Of a DNA stretch of 40,750 nt, positions 7,990-22,472 are shown one piece after another. The stretch comes from Planctomycetaceae bacterium (GTDB lineage Bacteria; Planctomycetota; SZUA-567), in assembly GCA_021201355.1 (NCBI GenBank), contig JAJQFC010000118.1, forward strand, positions 1 through 40,750, in the 5' to 3' direction. The position numbers and the translations under genes were made by a program. Every line of letters starts with the position of its first letter. Within the stretch, counting starts at the first letter, position 1. The notes beneath the pieces are model-generated. The model worked only from the letters and a program-made list of their open reading frames with translations. It was not told the origin of the DNA and searched no databases.

Positions 7990-8027
7990 CCCCGCCAGGA
8001 CTCGAACCTGGAACAAGAGAACCAAAA
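7990..8027. repeat. Displaced att copy (3' part of tRNA-Gln)
   Basis: ccccgccaggactcgaacctggaacaagagaaccaaaa is identical to 22404-22441. Outer flank gtgttggtt is also shared, with one nucleotide missing here. Confidence 0.9.
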
Positions 8028-8152
8028 ACGCATTTGGCGAAATTGCAACATCCCTTTAAAGCAAGGGTTATATGCCAACTTCTTTGCTTCGCACCAATTC
8101 CGCACCCTTTGATTTCGCCTGATGTTGCATGATTCTGCACCAAAAATGGGCT

Positions 8153-8187: not shown

Positions 8188-8673
8188 TTACCTGCCATCC
8201 ACATCGGCAATGACTGCCGCGATTAACTCTGGGGAGTAATGTGCTCCAGCCTCAATGAGTTTGTCAATGTGAGGCGCAATTATTTGAATAAGGCCCCGGC
8301 GCTTTGCCTTTCCCAAAAGCCCCAGAACACCGATGACTTCGAGGCCAACAGCTTTGGCAATACGTCTGCCGCGCAAGTCGTCAATACAGACGCGACGGAT
8401 GCCATTTTCAAGAGCCATTTGAATGACAGCAGCTTCCCCCTTATCCAGAGTTGCGCGAATCATTTCTGGAATGGGGGTAATTAAGGATTGTACGTGCAAC
8501 CACGGAGCATCAACAACCTGATGCCCGAGCTCGTCACCCACTTTCAACTCGTCAATTACCTCCTGTGGCGCGGTAAATTGATAAGGGAGTTGGGCAACCA
8601 CTGACAAAAGGTCGATTTTAGCCAGCAAAATAAGAGGTCCTGTGTCAATAGCGATATGCTTAATCATCGCCAT
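8188..8673 (-). CDS. DUF3368/PIN-like toxin
   Basis: IAIDTGPLILLAKIDLLSVVAQL...APQEVIDELK...LDKGEAAVIQMALENGIRRVCIDDLRGRRIAKAVGLEVIGVLGLLGKAKRRGLI matches the DUF3368 PIN-like style. Overlaps the upstream antitoxin ORF. Confidence 0.82.
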   Translation of the reverse strand: MAMIKHIAIDTGPLILLAKIDLLSVVAQLPYQFTAPQEVIDELKVGDELGHQVVDAPWLHVQSLITPIPEMIRATLDKGEAAVIQMALENGIRRVCIDDLRGRRIAKAVGLEVIGVLGLLGKAKRRGLIQIIAPHIDKLIEAGAHYSPELIAAVIADVDGR

Positions 8674-8926
8674 TGATGAACCTTAATTCGTCATCGGCAT
8701 CTTCGATACCCAGGTTTACGCAAGAATGCCCACGTCGCGCCAATTCATTCATGAAATCCACCTTGCCAAGGCCGCACATGGTGGCGGCTTGTCCCAGGCT
8801 GATTTTACCATCTTGGAACAGCTTGGCTGCAGTGGCAATTCTGGCAGTCTCGGCCAACTCTGTGCGCGACATGCCTGCGCTGGCCAGTATATCGTCTGTA
8901 TAAGGAATATCGATAACATTATTCAT
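8660..8926 (-). CDS. UPF0175-family antitoxin
   Basis: ARIATAAKLFQDGKISLGQAATMCGLGKVDFMNELARRGHSCVNLGIEDADDELRFI, typical UPF0175. Overlaps the DUF3368 gene start. Confidence 0.82.
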   Translation of the reverse strand: MNNVIDIPYTDDILASAGMSRTELAETARIATAAKLFQDGKISLGQAATMCGLGKVDFMNELARRGHSCVNLGIEDADDELRFINGDD

Positions 8927-9032
8927 AGTAATCCCTTTTTCACTTCTTAATGATACAAGAGCAGAAGTATAAGTCAAGGATTGGGCAGAAGTTGGGTTGA
9001 AAATGATTTATTGAGCAATCCCAAATGGCTCT

Positions 9033-12000
9033 CTACCACTCTTTTTTTTGTTCAAGTATCTTCATAATCCTTTGATACTCCTTGATTTTTGCCACCCCCG
9101 CATATGCACCCAAGGCTCTTAATACTTTCTCAAACTTATAGGGCCAAGATTTAATATCATGAGGTAAAAGTTTATGCAGTAGCCGAAATATTTCCAGGTG
9201 GTGTTTTTCGAGTACGGCTGCGTCTATATTGGTTAACATTATTGATGAACCGATCGTTCCAAGGCAATGCCTAGTCGCATGATAAATCCGCGGGAACAAT
9301 TCGACATCTGACATCATTATTCCCATGATTTGGTCGGTTGTGTTGGTTGTATTGACTGCTTTTTGTTTGGGCCAAACATCATTGAAAAACTCTCCGAACC
9401 TTGTGTACTCTTCTCTAGTATGTTGCTTTGCTCTGCGAAAATAATGTCCAATTGTCCATAGCAGTATTCGTCGATTATCGTCATTAACTCTTTGAATTAT
9501 ATCATGAAACTCTTTGTTGGACACCAATTGATTCCCCGAAATCTTTTTGTCGATAAACCAACCGTACAGGAGCAAATTCCAATATCGATCTCGGTCTCTT
9601 ATCTCCTTGGCAGTGCAGAGGACATCAATTAATTCATTTTTTAGGCTGTAAAATAACCTGGGCTGCGGATAGTCCGTCGCTCCCTTCATCCCTTCCAAAA
9701 TGATTATGCTTTCGCGTTTGTTGCCGTTCTTGAAGAAGCATAGGATATTGTGTTTTACCCATGTTTCTGCCTTTAGGTATAGCCAAGGTAGATTATGTGA
9801 AAGCATCGAGAGTGAGTAATCGCGCACTTCCCCCACGCAACCTAATAATTCTGTTAGCCCGTCTGTTTTCTGCTTAGGTAATTTAGTATTGTTTTTATCG
9901 TAACGCACATCCTTAAACCAGGCCCCCACGATTCTTCCCGTTGGCGAGTTCAATGCTTTCTCCAAGACCGAAATATCAGCGGGTGAGGTGATATTTGTTC
10001 TCGCGGTTTTTGGATATTCCTTGTTAATTGAGACAAGCTTGTCCATGAATGCATCATATGTTTCAGGATAATGTTCGGATAAGCCAGCACTTATTTTTTC
10101 AAACCAAGAGGACATACTGGGCATAATGTCCTTGAGGTTCAGATTGTGGTATTGCAAAAGACGACTTATAATAATATGACAAAGATAAAATCTCTTAGCA
10201 TTGATAGCGTCATTTTTCTTACAAATATTATAAAAAAATGTGCTCCATAGGTCTCTGTCAAATATATGCTTTCGGGCATGGTAAGTTAAAGCATGAAACG
10301 CTCTAATTGGCCGATGTTGGACCAAGCCAATGAAAGGTTTGTTCTCTTTTAGGAAATGTGTCTTCTTTTCTGAATGCTTAATACATTCGGAAACAATATT
10401 TCGGATGGGTACATTATTCAAGAAGCTAAAATCAGTAACGTATTGCACAAATCCGCCCGTCACTATTGGCTCAATAGCTCCATTCAGATTACGAATATAT
10501 CTTTCACTTAAATAATGATGTTTTTCCCGTAACTTTTCATAACGTTTTTGTGTTGTCTTCGAAAGACTACATTCTTTCAAGACCAAATAGCCCGCGTATT
10601 TCACGAAATCTGTTTCTTGGTGTTCTTTGGGTAGCTTTGGATGGCCGTGCAGCAAGCGATATTCAATTGCCTGTTTTTGCTTATTATTAAGGTATCCCCA
10701 TATGGTTTTAAGTGTTATTGTCAGGTCACGCCGATTATTATATTCCCAAAAATCGTCGTCGTTCACTTCCAAAAGACTGGCTACAATATTATCTAATGGT
10801 TGCAATTGGATAAATTTCGCAGCCCAAATTCTCAGGCAATCCCATATGCGCACGCCATTTTTGGGCCAGGAATAGTACTCGCTTTTGGCGGCATTAATAT
10901 CACACGTAATAGCTGTCTCGAATAGTGAAGTATAATAGTGCAGTAAGTAATTAAAATCGCTATCCCTAATGTGGCTCTTTTTTAGTGAATCATTAAATGG
11001 ATGAAGGCTGTATTCTTTGTATGGCTCCACTTGAAGGACCCAATCGATATGCCTTCGCACCTCCTTAAGAAAAAAGAATGTATATTTTTTATTAAAAAAG
11101 GATAATTTTTCATAATGATTAGGAAATCTGACTGTGACATTAAACCATTCTGACATATTTTTCGTGCGACAATTCAATATCTCTCTTAAACCAATTTTAG
11201 GCGTCACAAAAGCATAGGGGTGATTAAGTCTGAAAAAGGTGGCAAAAAGACTCATGTTTTTTTTGTGTTTACGTATCAAATCTGCGATTTTATCAGATTC
11301 ATGTTCAATTTGAAGTTCTAAATGGTTGTGTGGGTCGTCCCGCTGCTTCCATTCTTCTAAAAGGACATTCCATATTTTAAGGGAATCTGGATGTGCCTTG
11401 ATAAAGTCCACGAAACGTAATATCCGAGGATGTATCCCCGGTTGCTTGCAGGCCCACCACAGAGTGCAAGGCTCATTTAGTAGTTTTTCAAACCAGCCTC
11501 GAAACAAAAACACGCGCGGGGGTATTGAGCCATACGAACTTTTTTCGCTGACCAGGCCTGTTGTTAAGGATGCGTCTATCTCGATTTCGTCTGTTTCATT
11601 AAAACGGAAAAAATTCCATGCCGAAAGAGCAACCTCGTCGTTGGATTTTCCCGGAACAGCTGGAGGGGGGATATCGCTATCAAGTGCGTAATTCGCGAAC
11701 AAATCCACGTCGTCTTTTTTGGGTTTATTGAACCAATCATTTTCAGTATCTTTTTTGTTGTTGTAGCGTGTCCAAGGTGTAAACACACACAACCAAGACG
11801 ATGGTGGCGTCGGAATTGTTGAGGCAAAGGCCTTCATGCCCTCCTTGGACGAAACAAGATGCGCCACTTGACCTCGTTCAAAAGGTTTCAGTTTGTCTGG
11901 AGACTGGTGGGCCAGTGTGAGAACAGTTGATTCCCAGCGTGATTTATCCTTCACTTTGGCTGCCCAAGCCTTCAACGTATCCCATAAGACCGAGTGCCTG

Positions 12001-12824
12001 TCTGATTCGATGTATGGTATTGCTTGTACACCTTTATGAGCCCATTTTCCAGTTGCACTTATGTCGTCGCCAGATTGAAAGGCATAAATGTGATTGCATA
12101 GTAATGAATACTTGCCGAGTGCTTCCAAAAGATAACTTACTGGAGGGTCACTCGCTCCATATCCAATAAATACTACGGTGAAGTTGTCAATCAGATTGAC
12201 AATGAATTTGGTTGCCCAGCCTTCCGACAAATACGCCCGACCGAAGCTCGAACTTGAAAGTATTAATCCTTCACCATCAGGCGTATCATATTTTCTATTG
12301 GCAATTCCATGCAGGTGGATCAAGCCATCAAAATCAGGATTTGCATTGATATCGGGGAAGGAACCGGGGGTAAAAATGCGTAGTGTTGGATTTACTTCGC
12401 TGAAAAGGCGGTCAAAATTCGTTGTAACGACTCTTGTCTGTCCATCATCTGTTTTTGCTAAGTCCAGTATCACTTGGTGTGCAGAGAGGTAATCCTTCTT
12501 TTTTTTGGGTTTCAGAATACGGCATACAGTTGCATCAATCACTTCACGATTAAAGTCTCTTTCCAATTTTCCAAATATACGATCAAAAGAAAGACTTGTG
12601 TCTTCCTCTGCTGCCTAAATAAGCAATTTCTTGTACTCTGGATTATCGGATACTTTTAGTTCTTGGCACACCTTGTTTGTCAGATTAGGGAAATCTGGAA
12701 TTCCGGCCTTGGCTCGTGACACGCCTGCGCCACAAACAAATACAACACGGCCTCTGTCTCTGGCAGTAAGCAAGTCGCCTGGAATCAGTGGACCTTTTTC
12801 AATGAAACGCATTCCTGGAATCAT
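9033..12824 (-). CDS. SIR2-family large protein (putative anti-phage NADase effector), interrupted by an in-frame TAG at 12615-12617
   Basis: N-terminal RVVFVCGAGVSRAKAGIPDFPNLTNKV (12615-12824), then, same frame after TAG, RVVTTNFDRLF...FDGLIHLHGIANRK...FTVVFIGYGASDPPVSYLLEAL and a long C-terminal region. GGAGG upstream of the ATG at 12824. Confidence 0.78.
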
Positions 12825-13620: not shown

Positions 13621-13810
13621 TTGACCCGAGTTAGAGAATTTTCAATGACTACCGCCCGCCAGTAATTATTTGACGCGATCAATTGTTTTAAATATAACGT
13701 AAGGGTGCCACCATTGTGAACCTTACTGATCTCCCAGATAAAGGATATAACCATTTAAATACCTGACCTGAAAATTTTCATGACGCACCGGCGTCAAAAT
13801 CTCGGAAGCG

Positions 13811-13936
13811 CAGACAAAAACCCGCCAGGTTTACTGCAAAGGCGTAGCCGGGAATGAGGCGCACCCCCAATTGATTTTTTGGGGGTGCTGTCCGCATTTC
13901 TGCTCCTTTGCGGGCCTCTGGCGGGGCCTTTGTCTG
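13811..13936. other. Nested inverted-repeat region; candidate structured ncRNA or cruciform
   Basis: CAGACAAA/TTTGTCTG (13811-13818/13929-13936), CCCGCCAG/CTGGCGGG (13821-13828/13918-13925), GCAAAGG/CCTTTGC (13836-13842/13905-13911), GCACCCCCAA/TTGGGGGTGC (13861-13870/13879-13888). Confidence 0.6.
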
Positions 13937-13990
13937 AGCGGTAGCGGCAGCCCCCCTTTCCTTTATATGCCGCATACCACGCTTTTATTA

Positions 13991-14016
13991 GACGCCGGAT
14001 ATTTCGGCGTCTTTTT
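13991..14016 (+). terminator. Rho-independent terminator
   Basis: GACGCCG gatattt CGGCGTC followed by TTTTT. Confidence 0.75.
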
Positions 14017-14144
14017 CTGTTTCTGACTGTTTTTCAAAGTTCAAAATCTCGAATATGAGCAGAGAAAATGTTTGCTACATCCAAAGGGGCGGTGTGAACG
14101 GCGTAGATATATATAGGTTTTCCAAACAAAAGGAAGGGTGGAGC

Positions 14145-14573
14145 ATGTTTAAGTTTATCACAATTGTTTTTTGTATTCTGTATGGTTCGATTGGGTTATC
14201 GGGAGAGGGTAACAAGCAAGATGGATCAGAATGCGTAGATACAGCGCATATTCCTCTTCATGTTTTGGTAGCTCCCGGAAATACCAATATGCATGGTAAC
14301 GTACCGACCCCGTCGTCCTCTCTTATTTTAAAGGACACTGGATTCTATCATGACGACGACGTAAGTGTATATCCTGATTTTTCCACTTTCTGTCCTTATC
14401 CCATGTGAAATGTACCTTCAATTTTGATTCGGGACGAGACGTGGGACAATCACCGGTAATGCAAATTCAGATTTTGGCGATAATCTCAACGTTATTACTC
14501 TAAAATCCCAAAACGGTAGGACACGAAAGGTTATTCTATATATTAAGGCTAACCAATTTAAGATATTTGGATG
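14145..14573 (+). pseudogene. Small secreted/lipoprotein-like unknown, probably frameshifted
   Basis: MFKFITIVFCILYGSIGLSG signal-like start after GGTGGAG. The intact ORF stops at 14408, but a coding-like tail (GTITGNANSDFGDNLNVITLKSQNGRTRKVILYIKANQFKIFG*) continues in another frame to 14573. Confidence 0.35.
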
Positions 14574-20972: not shown

Positions 20973-22289
20973 CTATATCAATTTATCAATATCATCGTCC
21001 CGGCTGTCACGAGGAACGAATTGTGCATAATGCTTTCGACAGACTTCAGGGGGTATTGCCCATCCATGATGTTATTTTGTCGAGGCTGACGCCCTCCTGT
21101 GCAAGAAGAGAACCGAAGGTGTGACGGAACGAGTTCCAGCCAATCCGTTCGAGATGCGCCTTCAATAGTTCTGTCTTTTTGGCAAGTTCGATTTGATAGT
21201 TTTTTTGGCTTTCCGATATTCAGCCTTCGCCTTTTTCCATTGCTCGCTGGTAAGCGATCGAGGTTTGCCGGTATAGAGGGATGGTTTAATTATTTGCCAT
21301 TCCTCCATGAGGCGCTTTTCCTTTTCCTTGCGGATATGTATTTTCAGGTCCGTTAGGCGGTTGGGACGGGTGAGTTCGTCCTTATTCTGATTGCCGGTGT
21401 CGCCTGGCATTTTCACGACGTATCCATGCCGCTCTGACTCTGGAATTTTTGATAGGAGGAGGATGAGTTCTTTGGCCAATGGGACTGTTCGTTTTCCAGT
21501 CTTTCCTTTTCGGACAACCAGATTGCCCTTGGTCAAAAAAACGTCGTTCCATTTCAGCCGGCATACCTCCTCGCGTCTCATGCCTGCATAAAAGGCGATG
21601 GGGATGGCGTGCCAGTCAGGCCAGCCGCTCGCTTTTACTATTTCGATTATTTCCCGCCTTTCAGCTTTGGTGCAGTATACGATGTCTTCTGCGTCTTGTT
21701 CGGGCAGAATTTTTATTCCTGCAAATGGATTCCTGCGCGTTCTATGGGTGCGGATTGCCCATTTGAAAAAACTGTTGCAGGCAGACAGCACTCGGTTTCG
21801 CGTTCCTGCTGATTTACCCGACAGTATGATGGAGTTCAGGTATTCCTGAGCCTGTGCGCTGGTCGTCATGCGGATATCGCCGTCATGCCGATTATGGTCT
21901 TTATTATTATTGCAGAATTCGTTCAGTTCATTTAGGTAGCGCATCGAATGGGTTGCCCAGCCTTTCGAGGCCTCGCTGAAGAGAGTGGATTGGTATGCCG
22001 CTATCCAATCCGGATCGGTCGGAATATCCGACTGGTCGTTGCGCCCATAACGGTCAAGCATGTACTGCAAAACAGCTGAAGACTCCACATACAGTTCGGG
22101 AAAGTCGGGTTCCGCCATCGCCAGGGCGGCAGAGATGAGTCGTAGATCCGAGTCCACCAGCGCCGTCTTTTTCTGGTCGAGGTAGTTGGTGGGGATGGAA
22201 TACTGTTTCCCATTCCATTTCCAATAAATGCGCCAGCGACCACCATGGTAGCGCTTTTTCGGGGTGGGTTTGAGACCAAGCCTGGGCAT
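20973..22289 (-). pseudogene. Tyrosine integrase of the island, with two apparent frameshifts (near 21176 and 21050)
   Basis: ORF 22289-21162 has YAGMRREEVCRLKWNDVFL (Arg I) but lacks HxxR and Tyr. These occur in other frames: KTELLKAHLERIGWNSFRHTFGSLLAQEGVSLDKITSWMGNTP, then PEVCRKHYAQFVPRDSRDDDIDKLI*. Confidence 0.85.
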
Positions 22290-22397: not shown

Positions 22398-22472
22398 TGG
22401 TTACCCCGCCAGGACTCGAACCTGGAACAAGAGAACCAAAATCTCTTGTGTTGCCAATTACACCACGGGGTA
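22398..22472 (-). tRNA. tRNA-Gln (anticodon TTG)
   Basis: TACCCCGTGGTGTAATTGGCAACACAAGAGATTTTGGTTCTCTTGTTCCAGGTTCGAGTCCTGGCGGGGTAACCA; cloverleaf with anticodon loop TTTTGGT and encoded CCA. Confidence 0.95.

Follow-up and report, generated by a model that had tools for sequence, protein, structure and literature searches.

We describe a family of structured RNAs in Planctomycetota, Verrucomicrobiota, and Bacteroidota. From covariation and predicted folds, we consider it probable (roughly 0.7) that these are widespread cis-acting leader RNAs which would operate as bistable transcription attenuators. The family was traced from one copy in the window, as we call the whole 40,750-nt stretch of DNA analyzed here (contig JAJQFC010000118.1 of a Planctomycetaceae bacterium). 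The block in the window is itself a member, as it is recovered by covariance models which were built without it.

Structure of the block in the window

The structural part of the original prediction is confirmed. Co-linear stems span 13808-13939 and surround a 10-bp apical hairpin (arms GCACCCCCAA and TTGGGGGTGC at 13861-13870 and 13879-13888), a small hairpin (P0) is found 5' of the core, and a plus-strand intrinsic terminator follows at about 13990-14016. RNA folding of region 13782-14020 yielded -120.9 kcal/mol, compared to -81.0 +/- 5.1 for dinucleotide shuffles, and none of 200 shuffles was as stable (z -7.9 for the plus strand; the minus-strand fold of the block has z -5.1). The nesting of the stems is thus beyond chance, as had been claimed, and chance is further excluded by homologues which carry compensatory changes (see below). 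A single long ORF covers the block, on the minus strand (13778-13975, 65 aa). Because the copies of the family vary in size (about 110-150 nt) and keep no reading frame, this ORF is not expected to explain the structure, consistent with the earlier statement that no long protein accounts for it.

The features of the window copy and its surroundings are as follows:

13670..13698, plus strand: possible promoter TTGACG-17-TATAAC upstream of the RNA, as read from the sequence
13782..13795, plus strand: small hairpin P0, GACGC-ACCG-GCGTC, from sequence and fold
13801..13811, plus strand: S1, the 5' segment with family partner S1', from the family pairing test
13806..13946, plus strand: core, the long hairpin P1-P2-P3-P4; region behind the covariance models
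13808-13809 and 13811-13818, plus strand: P1 5' strand, pairing with 13929-13936 and 13938-13939
13818..13832, plus strand: mini-hairpin Pa, AAACC-CGCCA-GGTTT, with a loop region complementary to the Pm loop
13861..13888, plus strand: apical hairpin P4, GCACCCCCAA...TTGGGGGTGC, from sequence pattern and fold
13913..13928, plus strand: mini-hairpin Pm, GGCCT-CTGGCG-GGGCC, with a loop identical to the P2 3' strand
13948..13967, plus strand: tail CAGCCCCCC followed by a T-rich run, complementary to the P4 3' strand (13881-13890)
13990-14012 (stem) with T-run to 14016, plus strand: intrinsic terminator AGACGCCG...CGGCGTCT, present besides the family tail
14145..14408, plus strand: downstream ORF of 87 aa with an upstream ribosome site and a hydrophobic N-terminus (MFKFITIVFCILYGSIGLSG...)

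The candidate promoter was absent from the output of a strict consensus scan. Small hairpins comparable to P0 precede many other copies, as judged by eye. The apical pattern GCACCCCCAA...TTGGGGGTGC occurs in 3 of 41 genomes, all from the genus of the window host, and a control pattern occurs in none. An exact 11-bp direct repeat (TCAAAATCTCG at 13794-13804 and 14041-14051) flanks the structured block; it could be due to chance or represent an insertion scar.

Distribution of the RNA family

When the block was compared by BLASTN to the host genome, 199 relatives, plasmids, and phages, only the self-match was obtained. The sequence diverges too fast for BLASTN, and relatives are found only by covariance models. 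With a model from the single window copy (R1), members were found in three further genomes of the genus and in one genome from another family. The next model (R2), built from five of the R1-found copies with the window copy left out, scored the window copy at 124 bits and detected about 20 more copies. Model R3 was built from 20 copies, again with the window copy left out, and re-found it with 110 bits (E-value 5e-25, E-values of such home-made models being rough).

R3 had matches in all three phyla, namely in at least 34 of 294 genomes for Planctomycetota, 81 of 289 for Verrucomicrobiota, and 15 of 297 for Bacteroidota, the searches of more than 40 whole genomes having used strict filters, so that family counts are lower bounds. 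None of 33 genomes from other phyla had a match. A genome may carry up to nine copies: six each are found in the window host (five of them on other contigs) and in Victivallis vadensis, and five each in Odoribacter laneus and an Ereboglobus MAG. A stem pattern search of viral contigs gave no match; a similar apical palindrome is present in 19 viral contigs, none of which belongs to the family.

Tandem copies, about 280-300 nt apart, were observed in Odoribacter laneus and in G014:C39 (L216, L163). In three genomes from different genera (L150, L151, and L154 from G158, G050, and G260, respectively), the RNA and its near flanks are identical and reside within a block of 89-96% sequence identity.

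Covariation of the helices

Covariation analysis had been proposed together with the original prediction and supports the stems. In the set of 20 copies without the window copy, 87.3% of the pair cells hold standard pairs (58.4% after shuffling, about 41% when slid), with a covariation score of 0.603 compared to 0.163. For 57 copies outside any model, 90.3% of the pairs form (56.8% when shuffled), and 921 cells are compensatory, that is, changed on both sides, compared to 276 when shuffled; the covariation score is 0.759, compared to 0.199 for shuffled and about 0.10 for slid controls. Pairing is inflated in these numbers because alignments were fitted to the covariance model; an inflation that is large enough to explain the gap over the slid controls is not expected.

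The compensation is also seen in individual comparisons. Between the orthologous copies G014:C67 and G010:C13, which have nearly identical flanks, P2 has changed from CCGCCAG/CTGGCGG to CCTGAGA/TCTCAGG. In one genome (G007), three copies (L050, L056, and L065) share near-identical flanks and are followed by the same response-regulator gene, but their P1 and P3 helices differ and are internally compensated; here the helices evolve faster than the flanks. In the 20-copy set, invariant positions are found around P2.

Mini-hairpins and alternative pairings

Two mini-hairpins are embedded in the long hairpin, and the stems of both covary. The Pm hexaloop, mostly UUGGCG or CUGGCG, equals the P2 3' strand, and positions 2 and 3 of its stem are paired at 0.81 and 0.92, the swaps having values of 0.45 and 0.49 (sd 0.047). 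Pa is an AAA..UUU mini-hairpin which encloses the P2 5' strand (4.03 vs. a swap null of 3.45, sd 0.09; 3.93 vs. 3.04, sd 0.16, after deduplication). P2 can thus also be a loop-loop pairing. The window copy has both mini-hairpins with complementary loops.

Two further pairings are supported by the family. Segment S1 is complementary to S1', which precedes the apical hairpin (first set, 7.47 vs. a swap null of 5.24 with sd 0.13; independent set, 6.71 vs. 5.05 with sd 0.14). The P4 3' strand pairs with the tail (11.21 vs. 7.62, sd 0.17, and 11.17 vs. 7.67, sd 0.24, respectively), and in most copies a U-rich run follows directly 3' of the tail. Both pairings are 12 to 22 sd above the swap nulls in the two sets. 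Swap nulls leave relatedness in, and within-copy control windows and deduplication were therefore added: both pairings exceed the control windows and persist with one copy per distinct S1 (6.91 vs. 4.91 for S1:S1'). Both compete with the long hairpin, since S1' shares positions with the upper stem and pairing of the tail is at the expense of P4. The 3' half can adopt a terminator hairpin by itself. In Odoribacter laneus, the alternative fold is predicted to cost just 2-4 kcal/mol, and the 3' half would be a long terminator hairpin, tipped by Pm, which is nearly as stable as the best fold or part of it.

In the window copy, the S1 pairing is weak (GCGC/GCGT), and the pairing between the tail and the P4 3' strand, which represents the alternative terminator, needs one bulge and is followed by a degenerate, poor T-run. 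Together with the second terminator at 13990, these weak pairings suggest that the window copy may be a diverged family member in which control is partly decayed or rearranged.

Genes behind the RNA

A ribosome site and an ORF start in sense orientation are found within 300 nt downstream for 71 of 91 copies (median distance 76 nt), gene starts being predicted by a simple ribosome-site rule. On the divergent side, this holds for 14 of 84, and at random positions for 25%. About one-fifth of the copies have no recognizable gene start close downstream. In the window, the presumed target is the 87-aa ORF at 14145, which lacks a Pfam or PADLOC match and starts 198 nt past the core, farther than the family median.

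Different genes are found behind several copies of one genome. Overall, the downstream genes are diverse and code for lipoproteins, secreted proteins, response regulators, zinc-ribbon, ankyrin, methyltransferase, and nuclease-like proteins and, judged by resemblance, chemotaxis receptors. A common function was sought by Pfam and PADLOC for 81 downstream proteins, among which the top families occur just 2 to 4 times. Lipobox proteins (19% vs. 3%) and proteins with a hydrophobic N-terminus (39% vs. 11%) are enriched. As the genes share no function, they do not suggest a ligand; to our knowledge, neither a ligand nor a leader peptide is known for this family.

The integrated element around the block

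The window (G000:C84) contains an integrated element of 14.4 kb which is bounded by repeats of part of a tRNA-Gln gene (47-bp direct repeat at 7990-8036 and 22404-22450, with the first 38 bases identical). It codes for a tyrosine integrase (21162-22289), with a Pfam match that covers just the first half of the catalytic domain. The block is located between a ParA-type resolvase, which is directly 5' of it and shows about 66% sequence identity to plasmid proteins, and the 87-aa ORF. The 427-aa and 375-aa proteins of the element were used as queries and did not detect related viral loci.

An association between the RNA and the resolvase was considered and judged incidental, the latter being a common ParA-type plasmid resolvase. 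The resolvase paralogue of the host (C151) has no RNA copy directly downstream, the copy on that contig being 3.4 kb away; in G045, an RNA copy follows a distant resolvase. This second region of the host genome (L027 / L183, on G000:C151) thus has a resolvase with 75% sequence identity, a 3' fragment which resembles a tRNA, and an RNA copy as well.

Two other gene sets of the element are mentioned here. A SIR2_2-domain protein of about 1,200 aa is apparently encoded in two frames on the minus strand (12615-12824 and 9033-12566); this may be a defence gene in which the split is due to a frameshift or a sequencing error. A UPF0175 and DUF3368 pair (8188-8977), which looks like a toxin-antitoxin pair, adjoins the left end of the element.

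The original prediction had proposed the block as a candidate regulatory RNA of this element. A structured plus-strand RNA with a terminator and covariation is retained from this claim. The assignment to the element is not, given the host copies on other contigs and copies in relatives which precede ordinary genes.

Proposed switch and alternative explanations

The 5' and 3' halves of the leader are complementary along their length, and two folds can be envisaged. In fold A, which is predicted to be the most stable one and is supported by covariation, both halves would pair as one long hairpin. Fold B would combine two other pairings, both supported by covariation: the start of the 5' half with the stretch that directly precedes the apical hairpin, and the 3' strand of the apical hairpin with the tail that leads into the U-tract. 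The 3' half would then be a terminator, capped by the small Pm hairpin. As RNA polymerase advances, the 5' hairpin would form first, and the complementary loops of Pa and Pm may initiate pairing. Zipping of the halves into fold A would allow read-through, closure of the 3' half to fold B would lead to termination, and this choice would set the expression of the gene behind. It may be biased by a small molecule, a protein, the speed of transcription, or an RNA acting in trans. When both alternative pairings were forced in 145 copies, the median cost over fold A was 20 kcal/mol. Fold B would thus have to be kinetic or ligand-assisted, unless the pairings coexist as pseudoknots. A more specific version, to which we give even odds, is that the halves act as a sense/antisense pair, with kissing loops and a strand exchange that turns the terminator into a long duplex. 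This would be an undescribed class of switch and a common layer of control for accessory and surface genes in all three phyla.

A riboswitch proper would be a special case of the attenuator, with a small molecule bound at the Pa/Pm junction. The invariant positions around P2, the compact pseudoknot-like core, and the diverse gene sets, which are also known from second-messenger riboswitches, are compatible with it. The downstream genes lack a metabolic or transport theme, however, and the two mini-hairpins with their loop pairing account for most of the conserved nucleotides, so that we see this case as somewhat unlikely. It is improbable that the RNA is instead a small RNA which acts in trans, being an independent transcript with divergent paralogues in each genome and only incidentally followed by a gene. 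In favor of this reading, the RNA has its own terminator and several paralogues per genome, and pairing between copies might occur by the conserved complementary loops. On the other side, the spacing to ribosome site and gene is tight and oriented across phyla, attenuators typically show such an alternative pairing into the U-tract, and there is no other consistent partner. The long hairpin and the pseudoknot topology had also led us to consider self-cleaving ribozymes and 6S RNA, for neither of which there is support from an Rfam model.

That the block is a DNA hairpin for mobility or recombination (attC-like or MITE-like), which carries accessory genes, is quite improbable, even though the distribution is patchy, accessory and surface genes and some restriction-modification genes are found downstream, tandem copies exist, and the window copy resides in an integrated element between 11-bp direct repeats. 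Copies from the same genome have diverged with structure kept by compensation, near-identical dispersed copies were not found in the host genome, and oriented gene spacing and the U-tract fit an RNA rather than a recombination site. Cassette arrays were not seen, integron attC R'/R'' core boxes (GTTRRRY) were not detected by eye at the block ends, and copies are mostly single. Finally, the immunity or control RNA of a P4-type satellite, as initially hypothesized from a nearby integrase relic, is extremely improbable, even though the block resides in an integrated element that codes for a tyrosine integrase. The covariance model for C4 antisense RNA (RF01695), applied at its gathering score, does not match the window, while it detects the RNA of phage P4 (8420-8507, 74.9 bits) as a positive control, and our family model has no match in phage P4. 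The integrase, which had been taken for a relic of the P4 family, is unlike that of P4 (BLASTP to P4 Int with an E-value of 0.17, not significant), the block is flanked by the resolvase and the 87-aa ORF rather than placed in the leader of a P4-type replication operon, and many copies adjoin ordinary genes in other genomes.

Comparison to known RNAs

The Rfam search, likewise proposed at the outset, was run with permissive thresholds against Rfam 15 for the window and 27 other member loci from the three phyla, and no match over the RNA was obtained. With attenuators and riboswitch leaders, the family shares the position as a 5' leader, mutually exclusive pairings, a U-tract, and a gene start shortly downstream. 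Its architecture of two complementary half-hairpins, complementary loops, and long-range pairing of the tail has no match among Rfam 15 families.

In the P4 leader, RNA-RNA pairing influences transcription termination. The C4/P4 CI immunity RNA is similar in being a structured RNA in an integrated element with termination-linked RNA pairing; by analogy, RNA-RNA pairing probably decides transcription termination in the new family as well. Sequence and structure do not match in either direction, and in the new family the pairing partners are within one RNA, with many unrelated genes behind the copies. The plasmid antisense systems CopA/CopT and RNAI/RNAII proceed from kissing loops to an extended duplex. 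Complementary hairpin loops, a UUGG loop of the YUNR type, and an extended duplex between hairpins are shared with these systems; in the new family, however, both partners belong to a single transcript and pair in cis, and the genes which follow are many and unrelated.

Among published candidate RNAs, Rhodopirellula-1 has taxa that include Planctomycetes and is marked as probably cis-regulatory, and the taxa for GUCCY-hairpin include Bacteroidetes (Weinberg et al., 2010, PMC2864571). Both are also listed for Proteobacteria, and neither has an Rfam number in the table (PMC2864571). As the new family is absent from the 33 genomes of other phyla, it is set apart from these two by table description only, namely by the listed taxa. 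Neither Rfam 15 nor the searched discovery papers, with subscription journals covered to a small part, yielded a description of the family, and the leader RNA family is apparently undescribed.

Implications

It is rare for leader RNAs which covary to this extent and are this broadly distributed (130 genomes among those sampled from the three phyla) to have stayed unlisted. The family reaches the cultured species Victivallis vadensis and Odoribacter laneus and provides a concrete, testable candidate for an RNA switch in phyla where cis-regulatory RNAs are little studied. The missing metabolic theme points to a general signal which would control surface and accessory genes.
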